From contig CAIMWE010000025.1 in assembly GCA_903845115.1 (NCBI GenBank), positions 90,751 to 154,750 on the forward strand: a stretch of 64,000 nucleotides of DNA, in the 5' to 3' direction. Below, in pieces: positions 5,735 through 15,071 of this stretch. How positions within the stretch are numbered: the first letter of the stretch is position 1; each line of letters starts with the position of its first letter. Source of the stretch: an uncultured Acidobacteriota bacterium (GTDB lineage: Bacteria > Acidobacteriota > Thermoanaerobaculia > UBA5066). The position numbers and the translations under genes are program-made. Below the pieces are notes generated by a model. That model was not told where the DNA came from. It did not search any database and worked only from the letters and a program-made list of their open reading frames with translations.

Positions 5735-6466
5735 TCACTTCCGGGGGCCGGCTCCCGTGCACGGCCCGTCGGCGATCCCTTCCACGGGGTTCCCCTCGGC
5801 GTCGTAGATCACCTTGTGCTCGGCCGGCGTGGCGATGATCTCGTCGTATTCCACCACGGGGATGAACTGCGGGGTGTAGGCGGCGCCGGCCGCCTCGAGG
5901 AGGCTCACGAACGAGCGGAGGTGATTGCGGGAGCCCTTGGCCAGGTTCTGGCAGAGAGTGTCGACGTCAGCGTTGTCGGCCGCGGCCAGGAGACCCTCGA
6001 CGTCGGAGATGTCCAGATCCTCGATGGTGGCTCCCACCGTCAGGGCGGAGACGAGGCTCGCCCGACCGCTCTCGACGAGGCTGACATAGAGGGCCTGCAG
6101 GCGGGCGTTCGAGAAGACACCCGGGGCCGCGTCGGCCACCGGGTTGGCGAGGGCGTAACGGTCGAGGAGGAAGGCGACGGCGTCCATGTGCTGCTGCTCG
6201 GCGGCGGCGATGTTGGTGAAGGCGCGCTGGCCCCAGGTGGCCGCCATCGCGATGTAGACGTCGCGAGCGAGCTTCTCCTCCTCGATGGTGAAGAGGAGGC
6301 CGGCCTTCTCGGCGTCGTTCAGGGGCTGGACGGGCAGCGTGGACATGTACGAGGTGAGGCCGTCGCACGGGGGCGCGGCGGGCTTGCCTTTGGCGGTGGC
6401 GGCGAGCGGCGCGGCGAAAGCGAGGGCGGCGGCGAGCGCGAGGATCTTGATGGCGGGGCTTTTCAT
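5735..6466 (-). CDS. DUF2202 ferritin-like secreted protein (copy a)
   Basis: Signal peptide; EEEKLARDVY, AAAEQQHMDAV (ExxH) and GSRNHLRSFV motifs. Confidence 0.85.
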   Translation of the reverse strand: MKSPAIKILALAAALAFAAPLAATAKGKPAAPPCDGLTSYMSTLPVQPLNDAEKAGLLFTIEEEKLARDVYIAMAATWGQRAFTNIAAAEQQHMDAVAFLLDRYALANPVADAAPGVFSNARLQALYVSLVESGRASLVSALTVGATIEDLDISDVEGLLAAADNADVDTLCQNLAKGSRNHLRSFVSLLEAAGAAYTPQFIPVVEYDEIIATPAEHKVIYDAEGNPVEGIADGPCTGAGPRK

Positions 6467-6601
6467 GGTCTTGTTCCTTCCGGACTCCTTCGTCCGTTCA
6501 TGGGGTGTGCTTCGATCGGGGTTACGGTCGGATGGGGGAGGAGCGGTCCCGGCTCTCCCGGGGCCGCTCCGGACGGTCTGGTCGGGCGATGGGCGCCGGG
6601 C

Positions 6602-6946
6602 TCAGCCGCGGCCGCCGCGCCGGCCGGACGATCCCCGGCTGCCCGACCCCTGGCTGCCCTGCGGGCCCGTCCCGGTGCAGGTCCCGGACCCGGAGCCGAT
6701 GCCGGATCCGGCGCCCAGGCCGCCGTTCAGGGAAGGCGCCGTCTTGTTCGACGTGCCGAAGCCGTTGCCGTCCTTGGGACCGACGCCCTGGTTTCCGGTC
6801 CCGTCGCCCGGGCCGAGCTTCCGTCCCGACTCCGCCTGGGGGCCCTTGCCGTTCTGGGTGGCCTGCTGGGCGCTGGCGGGAAGGGTGGCGGCGAGGAGGA
6901 AGGTCCCCACGATGAGGGCCGCGGTGGTCTTGCTGTTGAAGTTCAT
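6602..6946 (-). CDS. Short secreted Gly/Asp-rich protein (GDG protein, copy a)
   Basis: ATG at 6946 with AAAGGGGAAC RBS; signal MNFNSKTTAALIVGTFLLAATLPASA; GPGDGTGNQGVGPKDGNGFG. Confidence 0.75.
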   Translation of the reverse strand: MNFNSKTTAALIVGTFLLAATLPASAQQATQNGKGPQAESGRKLGPGDGTGNQGVGPKDGNGFGTSNKTAPSLNGGLGAGSGIGSGSGTCTGTGPQGSQGSGSRGSSGRRGGRG

Positions 6947-7009
6947 TTTGTTCCCCTTTCTTGCTTGCCCGGGTTGCCCTCGCTGGGGCTCCGGGTCACC
7001 AGCCTTCAT

Positions 7010-7026
7010 CTCAAGAGTCGTGCCAC
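7010..7026 (-). promoter_or_regulatory. Putative sigma54 -24/-12 promoter of GDG protein a
   Basis: Minus strand reads GTGGCACG-ACTC-TTGAG: perfect TGGCACG, N4, then TTGA in place of TTGC; about 64 nt upstream of the ATG. Confidence 0.55.
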
Positions 7027-7118
7027 GGGAAGGCCGTAAAGCCGGTGAATGCGCTGGAGGCCGCATGAACAGAGGCTTTGCTTGCGTTGAAGGGGCGCCG
7101 GACCGGAGTTCTCGGGCG

Positions 7119-7134
7119 CTGCAGTTCTTGCAGG
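7119..7134 (-). promoter_or_regulatory. Putative activator (UAS) site, CTGCA-N4-CTGCA
   Basis: Minus strand CCTGCAAGAACTGCAG; 13/16 identical to ACTGCAAAACCTGCAG at 11311-11326; about 95 bp upstream of the -24 box. Confidence 0.5.
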
Positions 7135-7163
7135 CCGGCAGAAAGAGTCGCGGGGGCTCCGCG

Positions 7164-8552
7164 TCAGCCGGACCCGGGCTCCGCGTCATCGCGGCCGGGT
7201 TCCCCCCACTCCTTCAGCTTGCGGGCGAGGGTCTTTCGCTCGATACCGAGGATCCGGGCCGCGGCCGTCCTGTTCCCGCCCATCGCCGCGAGGACCTCGA
7301 GCGCGTGGCGACGCTCGACCTCCGCGAGGCTGGGGAACTCCTCGGCCTTCCCTCGAACGGCCGGGGGGGGTGGACTGGCCAACGGAGGCGTCGCGGCTGG
7401 GCTGGACGCCGCCAGGAGGTTCCGTGCGACGCCGGCGTCCCCGAGGGCGCCGGTGTCGATCAGGAGGCGCGTCACGGCGTGCTCGAGCTCTCTCACGTTC
7501 CCGGGCCACTCGTGCCCCGCGAAAGCCGAGAGGACGCCCTCGGTTGCGGACGGAGCAGCAGGCAGCCCCAGTTCCTTCGCGGCGTTCCTGCCGAAGTGGT
7601 CGACGAGGAGGGGGAGGTCCGAGATCCTCTCCCGGAGCGACGGCAGGCGGATCTCGTATCCGGCGAGCCGGAAGTAGAGATCCTGGCGGAATGCGCCGGT
7701 GGACGCGAGCGCGGAGAGGTCCCGGTGGGTCGCCGCCACGACGCGCACGTCGACGCTCTCCCCCCGCTCCGCGCCGACGGGACGGACGGTCTTCTCCTGC
7801 AGGAAACGGAGCAGCTTGGTCTGGAAGGCCGCGGAGACGTCGCCGATCTCGTCGAGGAACACCGTTCCGTGCTGGGCCTCGCGGATGGCTCCCCGGCGGT
7901 CGCGGTCGGCCCCGGTGAAGGAGCCGCGGACGTGCCCGAAGAGCTCGCTCTCGAGGAGCGTGTCCGGGATCGCCCCGCAGTGGACGGCGACGAACGGCCC
8001 GTCCGGATGCCGGCCGAACCTGTGGAGGGCCCGGGCGACGAGCTCCTTGCCGGTCCCTGTCTCGCCAAGGACGAGGACGGCGACCGAGAGGTGCGCGACG
8101 CGCGCCACGGCGTTGTAGACCTCGACCATCGCTGGGTGAGAGCCGACGATGAGGCTCTCCGGCCCGTCGGGACCGGCGGCCACCGCCTTTGGACGGGGTG
8201 CGAGGGCCCGCTGGACGCGGGCGACGAGAACGGTGACGTCGAACGGCTTGGCGAGGTAGCCCGCGGCACCGAGCCGGGCGGCGACCGTCGCGGTTTCGAC
8301 GGTTCCCCTCGCCGTCATCAGGAACACCTGCGGAGGGTTCTTCCCTTCCCTCAGGCGCGAGAGGAGGGACAGCCCGTCCTCGCCGGGCATGTAGATGTCG
8401 CTGAGGACGAGGTCGACGGGGCCGAGCGAGAGCTGCGCGATCGCCTCCGCGACGCTGGCCGCGCTCCGGACGGCGTGGCCGGCCTTCTCCAGGGCGAGGG
8501 CCGCCATCTCGCGAACGGCTCGGTCGTCGTCAACGACGAGAATCGAGGCCAA
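7164..8552 (-). CDS. NtrC-family sigma54-dependent response regulator (REC-AAA-HTH_8)
   Basis: ILVVDDD REC domain; GETGTGKELVARALH Walker A; GSFTGA loop; C-terminal AARILGIERKTLARKLKEWG Fis-type HTH. Confidence 0.9.
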   Translation of the reverse strand: MASILVVDDDRAVREMAALALEKAGHAVRSAASVAEAIAQLSLGPVDLVLSDIYMPGEDGLSLLSRLREGKNPPQVFLMTARGTVETATVAARLGAAGYLAKPFDVTVLVARVQRALAPRPKAVAAGPDGPESLIVGSHPAMVEVYNAVARVAHLSVAVLVLGETGTGKELVARALHRFGRHPDGPFVAVHCGAIPDTLLESELFGHVRGSFTGADRDRRGAIREAQHGTVFLDEIGDVSAAFQTKLLRFLQEKTVRPVGAERGESVDVRVVAATHRDLSALASTGAFRQDLYFRLAGYEIRLPSLRERISDLPLLVDHFGRNAAKELGLPAAPSATEGVLSAFAGHEWPGNVRELEHAVTRLLIDTGALGDAGVARNLLAASSPAATPPLASPPPPAVRGKAEEFPSLAEVERRHALEVLAAMGGNRTAAARILGIERKTLARKLKEWGEPGRDDAEPGSG

Positions 8553-10326
8553 GGCCAGACTCCTTCCCCGGTCGGGCCCCGTCGAGGAGGGGGAGGGCGA
8601 TCTCGAAGACGCTGCCCGATCCTTCCCCGCCCCGCACCGAGACGCGGCCGCGATGCCAAGCTACCACCTCGTGGACGAGCGAGAGCCCCAGCCCCAGGCC
8701 GTCAGTGCCGGTCGCGCCGCTGCCCCGCACGAAACGCCCGAAGACCTGCTCCCGCTCCGCCTCGGGAATTCCCGGTCCCTCGTCGGCGACGGCGACGAAG
8801 GCCTCGTTGCCCCGCCGCCCGGTCGTGACCAGGACGCTGGCGCCGGGCGGCGAGAACTTCAGCGCGTTCCCGATCAGGTTGTCGATCGCGCGCGACAGCG
8901 AGGGCTCGTCCCCCAGGACGAGGATCTCTTCGCCGGCACTGCCCCAACGCACACGCCCTGCGGATGCTGTCCCGAGCGCAAGGGCTCGCTTCCCCGCGAG
9001 GGCGCCCAGATCCACGGGTCCGGCCGTCCGGTCGAAGTCCCGGAGGCGCAGGCGCTCGGCGGCGTTGAGCGATTCGATCATGCCGCCGAGTCGCTCCGTC
9101 TCCTCTCCGACCATCGCCGTCACGCGCTGTCGTTCCTCCGGGGTCAGGTCGAGGCCGGAGAGGAGCTGGGTCAGGCCGCGAACGGCGGTGAGGGGGGTCT
9201 TCATGTCGTGGACGGCGACGCGGCGCGCCTCTCGCTCCTCCTCCCGCGCGGCGGCAGACAGGGAGGCCGCCTTCTCGTCCCGCCGGACCGCGAGGGCTTC
9301 CACCCAGAGGGTCGAGGCGAGACCCGCGATCGAGAGCGTCGCGAGGGGCAGCTCGATTCCTGCCGCGAGGAGCGGAATGCCGAGGACGGCCGGCAGGATC
9401 GCGAGCGCCGCAAGCGAAGATCGGCGACGCTTGCGTCCGGCTCTTCCGACGGCGAGCGCGAGGGCGGCCAGGGCCGCGCTGCAGGTGGCGGAGACGAGGG
9501 GTGGGGCGGGCTGGAGGAGCCCGTGGCGGAGGATGCAGGCCGTGGCGGCCGCGTGGACGAGGACGCCCGGCTCGGGCGTTCCGGGCGGTCCCCCGGGAGT
9601 GACGTACCGGTCTCCGAGGCCGGCCGCGGTGATGCCGAGGAGGACGACACGGTCCCGGAGCGCGGAGCCGGCCTGCCCGGCGAGCGCGGCGGCCGCACCG
9701 ACGACCGTTACGTCTCCGGGCCGGCACCGGAAGTCGGGGACCAGGACTCGCCCGACCGGAACCGGGCGCCGCCAGCCTTCCGAGAGGCCCGCTGCGGCGA
9801 GGGAGAGCGCCGTCCGCGAGACACCCCTCCGCTGCTTGGTCGAGCTCAGCCTGCGCACGACGCCGTCGTGGTCGACGTCGAAGGAGGTCTCGGCGATCCC
9901 CGCGGCGGCCCGCAGCGGCGCGGCCGGTTCGACCCAGCCCGCCTTCGCGTCCAGGGCCACGGCGAGGATCGACGGGAGGCGGCGCAGACTCGCCGCCAGG
10001 GTTTCGTCGTCAGCGGCCGGTTCCGCGAGGAGGACGTCCACGGCCAGGCCTCGGCTCCCGCCGAGTCGTACCGCGTCGACGAGCTCGGCCAACCGCGCCC
10101 TGGGCCAGGGCCACGGTCCCACGACGTCGAGGGCGTCCTCGTCGATGGCGACCACGGCCACTCCCGCCGGAGAGCGCGAGGGGAGGAAGCGCAGGAAGGC
10201 GTCCCGGACCGGGAGGTCGATGGAGGCCGGCAGACCGGAGGCCAGGGAAAGCGCCACGCCGATGAAAACGGCAGAGACGGCGGCCACCGCGAGGGCGGGC
10301 GGGCGAGGAACGCGGCTCTCGGGCAT
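8530..10326 (-). CDS. CHASE2 sensor histidine kinase
   Basis: ATG at 10326; extracellular VAVVAIDEDALDVVGPWPWPRARLAELVDAVRLGG CHASE2 motif; VHDMKTPLTAVRGLTQLL H-box; HATPase DNLIGNALKFSPPGA...GLGLGLSLVHEVVAWHRG. Confidence 0.9.
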   Translation of the reverse strand: MPESRVPRPPALAVAAVSAVFIGVALSLASGLPASIDLPVRDAFLRFLPSRSPAGVAVVAIDEDALDVVGPWPWPRARLAELVDAVRLGGSRGLAVDVLLAEPAADDETLAASLRRLPSILAVALDAKAGWVEPAAPLRAAAGIAETSFDVDHDGVVRRLSSTKQRRGVSRTALSLAAAGLSEGWRRPVPVGRVLVPDFRCRPGDVTVVGAAAALAGQAGSALRDRVVLLGITAAGLGDRYVTPGGPPGTPEPGVLVHAAATACILRHGLLQPAPPLVSATCSAALAALALAVGRAGRKRRRSSLAALAILPAVLGIPLLAAGIELPLATLSIAGLASTLWVEALAVRRDEKAASLSAAAREEEREARRVAVHDMKTPLTAVRGLTQLLSGLDLTPEERQRVTAMVGEETERLGGMIESLNAAERLRLRDFDRTAGPVDLGALAGKRALALGTASAGRVRWGSAGEEILVLGDEPSLSRAIDNLIGNALKFSPPGASVLVTTGRRGNEAFVAVADEGPGIPEAEREQVFGRFVRGSGATGTDGLGLGLSLVHEVVAWHRGRVSVRGGEGSGSVFEIALPLLDGARPGKESGLGLDSRR

Positions 10327-10373
10327 GGAGGATCGATATTGTCCTCTGCGTTTCACCGCTCCGCCGGGCAAGA

Positions 10374-10390
10374 GTGGCCCGGGAGTTGCG
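10374..10390 (+). promoter_or_regulatory. Putative sigma54-like promoter of FecR gene
   Basis: GTGGCCCG-GGAG-TTGCG: one mismatch in -24, intact TTGC at -12, GG-to-GC distance 12 bp. Confidence 0.4.
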
Positions 10391-10416
10391 TCGATCAAAC
10401 CGGAGGTCTCGACGTG

Positions 10417-11154
10417 ATGAGAATGCGGCGCGTCGCCCCTTACGTCTTCGTCGTGCTCGCGATCGCTGCCGTCGCGCTCGCCGAACAGCCGGCTGGGCTG
10501 CCGGTCGTGTACCGATTCGACGAGGTGAAGAGCAAGGTGATGCGCCTCCCCGGGGCTGATCCGAAATCCGAGGAAGTCAAGGCAAAGGCCGGAGACGCCG
10601 CAGCAGCCGGCGACACGGTCCGGACCGGCTTCTGGGGCCGGGCGATCCTCTCGGTCCCGGACCGGGCCTGCCGATTCGAGGTCTTCTCGTCCACCAGGGT
10701 CCGGCTCGCCGGCGGCGAGCCCGGCGTGATCCTGTTCCTCGAATCCGGGAGGCTCGAGGCCTTCTTCGACAAGTTCACGGGGGCGGCCGAGGAGCGACGT
10801 GTCGCCGCGCCGGGTGCGCTCCTCGTCGTCCGGGGAACGCGGTACGGAGTCGAGACGGGAGCTGGAGAACAGTCCACTCTGGCAGTGTTCGAGGGGACGG
10901 TGGAAGTGCTCCCCACGGCGCCGGGCGCTCGTCGTCTGCTCGTGGGACCCGGCGAGTACGGCGTCTTCGGGCCGAAGATCTCGCCTCGAAAGGGAGCCAT
11001 AGCCCCGGGCGCGGATGAGAGATCGTGGCGGAGCCGGGGCACCGCCGCGCTGGAAGGCTCTTCCGGGCTGCAGCAGGGGCAGGGCCCCCAGACTCCGCTC
11101 GGAACCGGCTCGCAAGGCCGCGGTGGCCCGTCCGCGTCTCGCGGCGGACACTGA
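10417..11154 (+). CDS. FecR-domain secreted protein
   Basis: VFSSTRVRLAGGE..., ARRVAAPGALLVVRGTRYGVETGAGEQSTLAVFEGTVEV FecR core; signal peptide; divergent from the CHASE2 kinase. Confidence 0.75.
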   Translation: MRMRRVAPYVFVVLAIAAVALAEQPAGLPVVYRFDEVKSKVMRLPGADPKSEEVKAKAGDAAAAGDTVRTGFWGRAILSVPDRACRFEVFSSTRVRLAGGEPGVILFLESGRLEAFFDKFTGAAEERRVAAPGALLVVRGTRYGVETGAGEQSTLAVFEGTVEVLPTAPGARRLLVGPGEYGVFGPKISPRKGAIAPGADERSWRSRGTAALEGSSGLQQGQGPQTPLGTGSQGRGGPSASRGGH

Positions 11155-11270
11155 CACCCATCCCCGTCGGCTCGTCAGGTCCGGCCCCGGCCAGTTCGTT
11201 GTGTGGGCATCGCGAGCAATACGCCGTCGTCCGGGCGTTCGGGCAAACGCATTCGCGGGCCCTGTTCCAC

Positions 11271-11326
11271 CTGCAACCCCCACTTCCATTGCAGTCGCAT
11301 TGCAGGTCCGACTGCAAAACCTGCAG
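11271..11326. promoter_or_regulatory. Cluster of five TGCAG/CTGCA half-sites (putative enhancer/UAS)
   Basis: Half-sites at 11271, 11290, 11301, 11312, 11321; includes perfect inverted repeats TTGCAGTCG/CGACTGCAA (11289-11297/11309-11317) and TGCAGGT/ACCTGCA (11301-11307/11319-11325). Confidence 0.55.
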
Positions 11327-11365
11327 CTGGATCGTGAAGACCCGCAGGAAATGGGCTTCGGGGAC

Positions 11366-11382
11366 CTGGCACGAGGGATGCG
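11366..11382 (+). promoter_or_regulatory. Putative sigma54 -24/-12 promoter of GDG protein b
   Basis: CTGGCACG-AGGG-ATGCG versus consensus YTGGCACG-N4-TTGCW; GG-to-GC distance 12 bp; 58 nt upstream of ATG 11440. Confidence 0.65.
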
Positions 11383-11439
11383 ATGCAGCAGATGAAGCCG
11401 GTGAGACCACCGGACCGAAGAAAGCAAAAGGAGAACTCC

Positions 11440-11709
11440 ATGAAACCTCGCTCGCTCATCGCGCCGGTCGCACTCCTCCTCGTCTCCGCGTTCGCCCTCT
11501 CGGCCAGCGCCGCTCCGGCCTCGAACGGACCCGCCGTCAAGAAACAGGCCCCGGCCGCCAGCACCCAGGGCAAGGGCAACGGCCCCGGCGATGGCAGCGG
11601 TCCCTACCAGCCCGGCGACGGGACCGGCTACGGCGCGAAGAAGGGCATCGGCGACGGCACCTGCATCCCGCTCGGCGACCAGATCCGCCGGATGTTCGGG
11701 AAGAAGTAA
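11440..11709 (+). CDS. Short secreted Gly/Asp-rich protein (GDG protein, copy b)
   Basis: RBS AAAGGAGA before ATG 11440; signal MKPRSLIAPVALLLVSAFALSASA; GNGPGDGSGPYQPGDGTGYGAKKGIGDGTC. Confidence 0.75.
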   Translation: MKPRSLIAPVALLLVSAFALSASAAPASNGPAVKKQAPAASTQGKGNGPGDGSGPYQPGDGTGYGAKKGIGDGTCIPLGDQIRRMFGKK

Positions 11710-11726
11710 CCCTGCCGAATCGATGC

Positions 11727-11759
11727 GAGGCGGGGTCTCGATCGTCGAGACCTCGCCTC
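11727..11759 (+). other. Strong intercistronic stem-loop
   Basis: GAGGCGGGGTCTCGA-TCG-TCGAGACCTCGCCTC: 15-bp stem with one G-U pair. Confidence 0.7.
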
Positions 11760-11776
11760 TTCAGAGGAGAAGGAAC

Positions 11777-12580
11777 ATGAAGAGAGCCGTCGTCGTCGCC
11801 CTCGCGGTCAACGTGGTCGCCGCCCTCGCCCTTCCGCTCGTCGCGGCCGGCGGTCCGCCCCCGGGACGCGGCGCCGGGATGGGGGCTGGCCGGGGAGCCG
11901 GGGTCGCCGCCTATCTCGCGACGCTTCCGATGCAGTCGGTCGATTCGAAGGAGAAGGCCGGGCTGGCCTGGGTCCGGGAGGAAGAGAAGCTCGCCCGGGA
12001 CGTGTATGCCGAGCTCGGACGCACCTGGAACGTCCGCATCTTCTCGAACATCGCTGCCGCCGAGCAGCAGCACATGGACGTGGTGAAGCTGCTCCTGGAG
12101 CGTTACTCCCTTCCCGACCCGGTCGGGCAGAACGCGGCCGGCGTCTTTGCCGACGCCAGGCTGAAGACCCTCTACGATGGTCTGGTCGCCAGGGGAAAGA
12201 CCTCGCTCGTCGACGCCATGAAGGTCGGGGCGGAGATCGAGGATCTCGATCTCTCGGACGTCGAACGGGAGCGGGCAGGCACGGACAACCAGGACATCGG
12301 CGCCATCTATCAGAATCTCGCGAAGGGCTCCCGGAATCATCTCCGGGCTTTCGTCCGGAACCTCCAGGCGAGCAGCGCCTCGTATACCCCGACGCACATC
12401 ACCCAGGCCGAATTCGACGCGATCGTCGCCGGATCGAACGAACGTGGCTGCCGCGACGCATCCGGAAATCCGGCCGCCGCCGGCGCATCCTGCAACGGCA
12501 GCGGCAACGGGAACGGGAACTGCAATGGCAGCGGCAACGGTAATTGCAACGGGGGCGGCCGCGGCCGTTGCCGCGGGTAG
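11777..12580 (+). CDS. DUF2202 ferritin-like secreted protein (copy b) with Cys/Asn/Gly tail
   Basis: EEEKLARDVYAELG, AAAEQQHMDVV, GSRNHLRAFV conserved with copy a; C-terminal CNGSGNGNGNCNGSGNGNCNGGGRGRC. Confidence 0.85.
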   Translation: MKRAVVVALAVNVVAALALPLVAAGGPPPGRGAGMGAGRGAGVAAYLATLPMQSVDSKEKAGLAWVREEEKLARDVYAELGRTWNVRIFSNIAAAEQQHMDVVKLLLERYSLPDPVGQNAAGVFADARLKTLYDGLVARGKTSLVDAMKVGAEIEDLDLSDVERERAGTDNQDIGAIYQNLAKGSRNHLRAFVRNLQASSASYTPTHITQAEFDAIVAGSNERGCRDASGNPAAAGASCNGSGNGNGNCNGSGNGNCNGGGRGRCRG

Positions 12581-12596
12581 ACGTTACGATCCATCG

Positions 12597-13790
12597 ATGC
12601 GGCTGTCCGGAACGCCCGTCCGTCTCGTCGTCCTCCCTGCAGGGATCCTGGCGGTGGCTCTCGTGGCCACCGCCTTTCTCGCGTCCAGCTCGCTCTCCCA
12701 GCGCGACGCCGCAGTGCGTGAGGGAATCCTGGTCCGGGCCGGCCACGACGTCGAGACAAGGCTTCGGGAAGTCACTCCGGCGGACGCCCCAGCCGTCCTG
12801 CAGGCCTTCCTGGGCGAGAACGCCGAGACGATCGAGGGGATCGAGGTTGCCGGGCCCGACGGCCCGATCGCCTCGGCCGGCACGGCCCGGCCAGGGGCCT
12901 TCGAGATGCCCGCGGCCCTCGGGCGGGAGTGGCGATCCCTGGTCGTTCCCGGCGGTGGACGCGGGCGCGGCCAGGGCGGGCCGGGAATGGCACCGTTCCG
13001 GCTCCGACTCTCCCCGTCTCCGTGGCTCGGGCAGGAAGGGGTGCTGTCGATGGTGGTGGCGGGAGGCGGGCTCGTCGCGGGCCTGGCCCTGGTCGGGCTC
13101 TCGCTCTTCGCGGCGCGGGGGCTCGAACAGCGGCAGCGGCTGCTGACGGCCGAGGCCGAGCGGCGTCGCCTCGCCGCCGTCTCGCTGGCCGGCGCCGGGC
13201 TGGCTCATCGGGTCCGGAACCCGCTCGCGGTGATCAAGGGGACCGCCCAGCTCCTCGAGGAGAAGCTCTCCGGACAGGAACGCGAGCGCGCGACCCGGAT
13301 CGTGGCGTCCAGCGAGAGGATAGAGTCGCTCCTCTCCCGGCTCCTCGACTTCGCAAGACCCACCGAGGCCGAGCCGGAGGAGCTCGACCTGGCCGACCTC
13401 GCGCGCCAGGTGGCCTCGCGGACGGTCCCTCCGGCCAGCGTGGCCGCCGCCGGACCCGTCTGGGCCTTCGTCGACCGCGATCAGGCCGAGAGCATCCTCG
13501 AAGAGCTCCTCGCGAACGCCCGCGCTTTCGATCCCGGGGGCCCGATCGAGGTCACCGTGTGCGCCGAGAGGGGGACGGCCCTCCTGGAGGTCCTCGACCG
13601 GGGGCCGGGTCCGGGTGTCGATGCCGGACGGGCGTTCGACCCCTACGTGACGTCGCGCCCCGACGGGACCGGCCTGGGCCTGGCGATCGTGAGGGCCCTG
13701 GCCGAGACCAACGGCGGCTCGACGTCTCTGGCAGCGCGCAGCGGCGGCGGCACGGTCGCGTCGTTCCGGGTCCCTTCCGGGGGAAACTAG
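12597..13790 (+). CDS. Sensor histidine kinase
   Basis: ATG 12597; two TM segments; AGLAHRVRNPLAVIKGTAQLLEE H-box; GTGLGLAIVRALAETNGG HATPase. Confidence 0.85.
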   Translation: MRLSGTPVRLVVLPAGILAVALVATAFLASSSLSQRDAAVREGILVRAGHDVETRLREVTPADAPAVLQAFLGENAETIEGIEVAGPDGPIASAGTARPGAFEMPAALGREWRSLVVPGGGRGRGQGGPGMAPFRLRLSPSPWLGQEGVLSMVVAGGGLVAGLALVGLSLFAARGLEQRQRLLTAEAERRRLAAVSLAGAGLAHRVRNPLAVIKGTAQLLEEKLSGQERERATRIVASSERIESLLSRLLDFARPTEAEPEELDLADLARQVASRTVPPASVAAAGPVWAFVDRDQAESILEELLANARAFDPGGPIEVTVCAERGTALLEVLDRGPGPGVDAGRAFDPYVTSRPDGTGLGLAIVRALAETNGGSTSLAARSGGGTVASFRVPSGGN

Positions 13791-13793
13791 GGC

Positions 13794-15071
13794 GTGGCTC
13801 GAATCCTCGTCGTCGATGACGAAGCCCCGTTCCGGACCCTGATCCGGGAGATCCTCGAGGAAGCCGGCCACGCCGTGGTCGAAGCGCGCGACGGCGCGGA
13901 GGCGCTCGCCTTCCTCGAACGTTCCCCGGTCGACGTCGTCCTGACGGACCGCCGGATGCCGAAGATGGACGGGATCGAGCTGCTGCGGCGCCTCCGGACG
14001 AGGCCCAGGCCGCCGAAGATCGTCGTCCTGACCGCCTTCGGCACGATCCCGGAGGCGGTGGAGGCGGTTCACCTCGGCGCCTCTGACTACATCACCAAGC
14101 CCCTTCCCTCGCCAGGGGCCCTCGTCGACCTTGTGGCAAGCCTCCTGCCGCGGGAGGAGGACGGCCACGAGTTCGTCTCGGCCGACCCCAAGACCGCAGA
14201 GGTGTTGACCGTCGTCGATCGGGTCGCCCCCCGCGACGTCTCCGTCCTGGTCACCGGGGAGTCGGGAACCGGGAAGGAGCTGATCGCGAGGAGGCTCCAC
14301 GCACGGTCAAGTCGCGCCTCGGGACCGTTCGTGGCTGTGAATGCCGCCGCCCTCCCCGATTCGCTGGCCGAGAGCGAGCTGTTCGGGATCGACAGGGGTG
14401 CCTACACCGGGGCCGACCAGCCGCGCGCGGGGCGTTTCGAGGAGGCATCGGGCGGCACCCTTTTCCTCGACGAGGTGGGGGAGCTCTCGCTCGCGATCCA
14501 GGCGAAGCTCCTACGGACGCTCGAAGAGCGGACGGTTCGCAGGCTCGGAGGCACCCGCGATCTCCCGGTCGATGTCCGGCTGGTCGCGGCCACGAATCGC
14601 GACCTGGAGGCCGAGGGAGCGAACGGGAAGTTCCGGACCGATCTCTATTTCCGGCTCGCCGTGGTCGGGATCCACCTGCCGCCTCTCCGCGAACGTCCCG
14701 CCGACATCCCGGCCTTGGCGCGCCACCTCGTCGGGATCCTGTCGGCGCGGCACGGAGTAAATCCCGCGCCGCTTTCGGCGGGAGCGCTGGACTCCCTGGC
14801 AGCGTGGAACTGGCCGGGCAACGTCCGGGAGCTGCGGAACGTCCTGGAGCGGGCGATCGTGATCCGGGGAAACGAGCCCCTCCGGCCCGAGGACTTCGTG
14901 CTCGGCTCCGGGCGCCCTTCGGCGGCCCCTCTCCACCGCGAGCAGCGCGAGCGGGAGGCGGTCCTGGAGGCCCTCCGGCTGAGCGGCGGCAGGCGCGACG
15001 AGGCCGCGAAGCACCTGGGGATCTCGGTCCGGACGCTTTACTACCGGCTCAAGCAGTGGGGGGTCGGCTGA
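13794..15071 (+). CDS. NtrC-family sigma54-dependent response regulator
   Basis: GTG start; [40 protein letters not shown] variant of GAFTGA; Fis-type HTH AAKHLGISVRTLYYRLKQWG. Confidence 0.9.
   Translation: MARILVVDDEAPFRTLIREILEEAGHAVVEARDGAEALAFLERSPVDVVLTDRRMPKMDGIELLRRLRTRPRPPKIVVLTAFGTIPEAVEAVHLGASDYITKPLPSPGALVDLVASLLPREEDGHEFVSADPKTAEVLTVVDRVAPRDVSVLVTGESGTGKELIARRLHARSSRASGPFVAVNAAALPDSLAESELFGIDRGAYTGADQPRAGRFEEASGGTLFLDEVGELSLAIQAKLLRTLEERTVRRLGGTRDLPVDVRLVAATNRDLEAEGANGKFRTDLYFRLAVVGIHLPPLRERPADIPALARHLVGILSARHGVNPAPLSAGALDSLAAWNWPGNVRELRNVLERAIVIRGNEPLRPEDFVLGSGRPSAAPLHREQREREAVLEALRLSGGRRDEAAKHLGISVRTLYYRLKQWGVG

Follow-up and report, generated by a model that had tools for sequence, protein, structure and literature searches.

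The locus examined here raises the question of what purpose is served by five TGCA-cored half-sites packed into 56 bp of DNA between two genes, and which protein might read them. The array occupies positions 11271-11326 on the forward strand of the window (the whole stretch of DNA analyzed, 64,000 nucleotides), and lies between a FecR-domain gene that ends at 11154 and a gene for a small Gly/Asp-rich protein, termed GDG1, that starts at 11440. CTGCA or TGCAG begins at 11271, 11290, 11301, 11312 and 11321, exactly as the original prediction had listed, and the last of these is the palindrome CTGCAG (11321-11326). The same prediction described an 11-bp phasing, which holds only when distances are counted from the CTGCA/TGCAG starts; measured between palindromic TGCA cores, the half-sites are 18, 11, 12 and 9 bp apart. 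The two interleaved perfect inverted repeats it proposed are both present (TTGCAGTCG/CGACTGCAA at 11289-11297/11309-11317, and TGCAGGT/ACCTGCA at 11301-11307/11319-11325), and ACCTGCAA/TTGCAGGT, at 11269-11276/11300-11307, forms a third. No protein family backs a coding reading of the array region, in agreement with the earlier view that no coding feature explains the cluster.

The array is rare at every scale that was searched. It is the only site in the 64-kb window with four or five TGCA cores (counted from CTGCA or TGCAG) per 56 bp, and simulation of 180 sequences of the same length (60 per Markov order, orders 1 to 3) gave at most three. When the 290-bp intergenic region was shuffled 20,000 times, five cores never arose and four arose once. 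Pattern searches of the 5.85-Mb genome found the promoter-proximal pair CTGCANNNNCTGCAG, which reads CTGCAAAACCTGCAG at 11312-11326 (forward strand), in four places, two of which are upstream of the two sigma-54 boxes associated with GDG and DUF2202 genes. The pattern CTGCAANANCTGCAG has exactly two exact matches genome-wide, at these same two promoters (the focal one and its mirror, described below). Perfect inverted repeats, as found in the window's own genome, would suit an RNA or DNA hairpin, and a GC-rich intergenic region might also gather such sites by chance. However, both explanations are exceedingly improbable in light of the simulation and shuffle statistics and the conservation of the array across families. 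Moreover, the half-sites are arranged directly, not as inverted repeats, in relatives such as G111, G113 and G121, the predicted transcription start site is downstream of the array, and no Rfam RNA family matches the array region.

The array ends 40 bp ahead of a predicted sigma-54 -24/-12 element, TGGCACGAGGGATGC, at 11367-11381 on the forward strand. This element has the GG-N10-GC form and 10 of 11 consensus bases, and the genome carries one copy of rpoN (PF04552, 216 bits). The cluster was expected ~40-95 bp upstream of the -24 box, and the measured distance is 41-96 bp. One more TGCAG is found at 11384-11388, near the predicted GDG1 transcription start. The array and sigma-54 element are followed, all on the forward strand, by GDG1 (11440-11709), which is the first gene of the putative target operon, the gene for DUF2202 protein a (11777-12580; PF09968, 188 bits), and genes for a sensor histidine kinase, HK2 (12597-13790; HisKA and HATPase_c), and an NtrC-type response regulator, RR2 (13794-15071). 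GDG1 has a signal-peptide-like N-terminus and no Pfam family above the cut-off. DUF2202 protein a likewise begins with a signal-peptide-like segment, and is related to the solved structure MJ0754 (PDB 3q4n/3q4o). RR2 combines a receiver (PF00072), an AAA+ domain with a GAYTGA loop (PF00158) and an HTH_8 domain (PF02954) with LGISVRTLYYRLK, as expected of the NtrC family. The FecR-domain gene (start 10417) has a second sigma-54-like element, TGGCCCGGGAGTTGC, 27 bp ahead of it at 10375-10389 (forward strand); no CTGCA array accompanies that element.

A mirror module lies on the opposite strand, in the order HK1, RR1, array, sigma-54 element, GDG2, DUF2202b. It comprises a CHASE2 histidine kinase (HK1, 8530-10326), a second NtrC-type response regulator (RR1, 7164-8552) with an LGIERKTLARKLK helix, a two-core array, CTGCAAGAACTGCAG (7119-7133), that precedes its -24 box by 93 bp, a sigma-54 element, TGGCACGACTCTTGA (7011-7025), that matches 10 of 11 consensus bases and has GA where the consensus has GC, another small Gly/Asp-rich protein with a signal-peptide-like N-terminus (GDG2, 6602-6946), and DUF2202 protein b (5735-6466; PF09968, 175 bits). 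The scores of DUF2202 copies a and b compare with a Pfam gathering score of 22. The region 5735-15071 thus consists of two inverted modules, each with a histidine kinase, an NtrC-type regulator, a sigma-54 promoter, a GDG protein and a DUF2202 protein, and apparently reflects an old duplication; the paralogs share 51% identity for DUF2202 a versus b and 46% for RR1 versus RR2. Genome G013 also has both module types.

The array, judged from sequence comparisons, is very probably an upstream activating sequence (UAS), or bacterial enhancer, of the NtrC-family activator RR2, the partner of HK2. The enhancer reading of the original prediction is supported by the rarity, conservation and position of the sites and by their linkage to RR2. 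A motif search at orthologous loci, which was among the checks that prediction had named, found arrays of this half-site ahead of DUF2202/GDG genes from other genera and families, so the lack of conservation that would have spoken against the prediction was not observed. Of 149 genomes in the class, 23 contain DUF2202 relatives (the related genomes are mostly fragmented assemblies), and most full-length relatives have a TGCA-core array upstream, as a rule with a sigma-54 box behind it. In 23 such promoter regions, an unbiased tally of every 5-mer ranked CTGCA at the top (110 versus 33 expected, z = 10.3). Among 6-mers in the same regions, CTGCAG ranked first, and TGGCAC (-24 box) and AAGGAG (ribosome-binding sequence) were among the top. 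The composite CTGCANNNNCTGCAG-N75-105-TGGCACN5TTG has one match each in 12 of the 149 class genomes, whereas the reversed composite, used as a control, has no match in the same 149. In a sample of 396 genomes of the phylum, mostly from outside the class, the composite was found in the window's own genome only.

Alignment of 29 arrays, two from the window and 27 further ones from related genomes, indicates what is conserved. Cores are mostly 9-13 bp apart, with spacings of 18-21 bp where one core is missing and a few of 7 or 14-16 bp; the focal spacings of 11-12-9 resemble those in G007 (12-11-9) and G013 (11-11-9). The ~9-13 bp core spacing is kept in relatives and the inverted-repeat geometry is not. 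Thus, by sequence, what the promoters have in common is a series of TGCA cores, usually with CTGCANNNNCTGCAG or a near variant, rather than the interleaved inverted repeats. The last core precedes the best -24 match by 76-103 bp, so that repeated half-sites at looping distance from a -24 box are conserved across orthologous promoters. The two exceptions are the focal array (45 bp) and a doubtful one in G046 (132 bp). Two features of this comparison count against the enhancer reading, namely that most other arrays stand 45-50 bp farther from the -24 box than the focal one does, and that the promoters at G007, G010, G032 and some other loci are poor matches to the -24/-12 consensus. The short focal spacing could reflect either a rearrangement or a fine-tuned difference.

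Two NtrC-type regulators are candidates for binding the array, and gene context discriminates between them. Clustered cores are present within 300 bp 3' of RR2 at 15 of the 21 RR2 loci in the class. In contrast, a search of 30 RR1 loci revealed the array at only two, both with GDG/DUF2202 genes downstream; at the other 28, most of which keep the LGIERKTL helix, the 3' flank has no clustered array. Array linkage to RR2 versus RR1 gives a Fisher p of ~2e-6, a value inflated by the relatedness of the genomes. RR1 might nevertheless bind the array alone, or RR1 and RR2 might share one motif as paralogs, given that both are NtrC-type with HTH_8 and that in both the window's genome and G013 the mirror array immediately follows RR1. 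This alternative is unlikely, because the 28 array-free RR1 loci are joined by G127, where an RR1 ortholog is present but RR2 gave no hit and the loci examined carry no array, and by G010-G012, in which arrays lie before a GDG gene and no RR1 ortholog is above the cut-off. Since RR1 orthologs elsewhere lack the array, the likely binder, as judged by genetic linkage, is RR2 (13794-15071) and not the two NtrC regulators together. We likewise favor the reading that the mirror array at 7119-7133 is read by RR2.

The two regulators differ in their recognition helix, which contains SVRTLY in every RR2 and ERKT/SL or a close variant in RR1. Both regulators have a GAFTGA-type loop, a feature required to activate sigma-54, with GAYTGA in the RR2 of the window and GAFTGA or GSFTGA in its orthologs. 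A scan of genome contigs with RR2 returned only generic NtrC relatives of at most ~46% identity, which were used as the outgroup; the RR2 clade is monophyletic (20 of 20, support 0.954).

The array also remains with RR2 when the target gene changes. In seven genomes that have no DUF2202 hit (G009, G032, G133, G137, G138, G140 and G142), the array lies just after the RR2 stop codon. There it precedes a different secreted-protein gene, in most cases with a recognizable sigma-54 box. The alternative RR2-linked target is a secreted protein of ~270-300 amino acids with two similar halves and a Gly-rich linker, found at loci L158 (2974, reverse complement), L163, L164, L156 and L173; no Pfam family was found for the three proteins tested. 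In the window's own genome and in G008, G116 and G135, the array is not directly behind RR2 but precedes DUF2202 elsewhere in the genome or beyond a convergent gene. TGCA-cored operators are known for other regulator families, and some other DNA-binding protein, such as a repressor or a global regulator that competes with sigma-54 activation, might use the array, its linkage to RR2 being a case of hitch-hiking. However, this explanation is very unlikely, because the array follows RR2 across these changes of target, lies upstream of the promoter rather than over it, and has the multi-half-site geometry of NtrC-family activators such as CbrB (PMC6296734).

Several loci count against assignment of the array to RR2. 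The RR2 ortholog in G123 (locus L167) has no array nearby, and G130, a genome that is 65% complete, has an array and no RR2 hit. The RR2 ortholog in G046 is accompanied by a doubtful array only; this array-like run lacks a good sigma-54 box and was not relied on. In addition, the usual order is HK2-RR2-array-target, whereas at the focal locus the target comes first and HK2-RR2 lies behind it.

The alignment of dimers, assembly of an AAA+ hexamer and DNA looping are established for NtrC-family activators, and the RR2 system would presumably act in the same manner. HK2 would sense a signal, probably in the envelope, and phosphorylate RR2. RR2 dimers may then occupy paired TGCA half-sites separated by roughly one turn of the helix (those in CTGCANNNNCTGCAG and the neighboring ones), and several aligned dimers would allow the AAA+ hexamer to form. 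Looping of the DNA would bring the hexamer to RNA polymerase-sigma54 at 11367-11381, where ATP hydrolysis would open the promoter. The promoter would drive GDG1 and DUF2202a and possibly HK2 and RR2 behind them, in which case the operon would be self-amplifying. This possible feedback is suggested by the location of HK2-RR2 downstream of the target genes. The mirror operon, GDG2-DUF2202b, is probably a second target of RR2, activated via 7119-7133. IHF-assisted looping was considered and dropped, as a consensus scan of the spacers between array and -24 box gave mixed results, with a best focal match of 5 of 9 positions and a good match at no more than a few related promoters. Our guess is that the response is envelope- or metal-related, based on the secreted Gly-rich targets and the relationship to the solved MJ0754 structure.

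Among known systems, the enhancer of glnAp2 contains TGCAC...GTGCA dyads that are bound by NtrC. It resembles the RR2 array in that TGCA-cored half-sites, set roughly one turn from each other, precede a sigma-54 promoter, but differs in the outer bases and spacing and in its unrelated targets. ZraSR-ZraP is an envelope-stress module that likewise pairs an NtrC-type two-component system with an adjacent, sigma-54-driven gene for a small secreted protein; however, the predicted RR2 targets are GDG, DUF2202 and other secreted proteins, not ZraP. In Pseudomonas, CbrB sites at crcZ, crcY and PP2810 consist of several short subsites on one helix face (PMC6296734). CbrB is similar to the RR2 system in that an NtrC-family response regulator acts at sigma-54 promoters through forward and reverse short subsites with variable spacing, but its subsite is TGTTAC, three subsites have centers 20-25 bp apart, and IHF is involved (PMC6296734). 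In RR2 arrays, by contrast, the TGCA cores are mostly 9-13 bp apart and there is no consistent IHF match. AtoC, which acts upstream of atoDAEB in Escherichia coli, is a two-component sigma-54 activator with some targets that contain CTGCA, although it acts at an inverted palindrome of 40 bp that lacks a strict consensus, and its targets are unrelated (PMC3118216). This AtoC paper was the only relevant one found for CTGCA with sigma-54 response regulators (PMC3118216), and a search of literature text gave no match for DUF2202 or MJ0754. AtoC is also the best NCBIfam match of RR2, which scores below the equivalog cut-offs for AtoC (385 of 714 bits), NtrC (365 of 559) and ZraR (332 of 760); RR1 is also below the NtrC cut-off.

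On the basis of these comparisons, we conclude that RR2 and HK2 form an undescribed NtrC-family two-component system that probably controls secreted proteins. The motif and the proposed regulon are new, within a known class of enhancer-binding systems. Together they supply a specific DNA code, a candidate for the activator and a limited set of targets for a sigma-54 two-component system of which no description was found, and tie the uncharacterized DUF2202 and GDG proteins to a regulated response. A broader reading, which we hold tentatively and rate as slightly short of an even chance, is that RR2 and the CTGCA array constitute a portable cassette in which the DNA code was kept while the target changed (DUF2202, GDG, or the unrelated two-halved secreted protein). 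In the window's genome, the cassette would also control the second, duplicated HK1-RR1-GDG2-DUF2202b module, whose regulator would read a different code, and would thereby join two sensors in one network, with a focal enhancer that works ~45-50 bp closer than in most members. RR2 and RR1 have different recognition helices and both lie beside arrays here, which would make this locus a good test of how insulation is kept or lost in duplicated two-component modules.

The genes and proteins near RR2 show some further features. In G123, the gene that follows RR2 (L167) encodes numerous CxxCH motifs and is multihaem cytochrome-like. The tail of DUF2202 protein a is rich in Cys, Asn and Gly (CNGSGNGNGNCNGSGNGNCNGGG, window positions 12490-12580), and NGPG/GDG-type Gly-rich stretches are common to the GDG proteins and the other putative RR2 targets.
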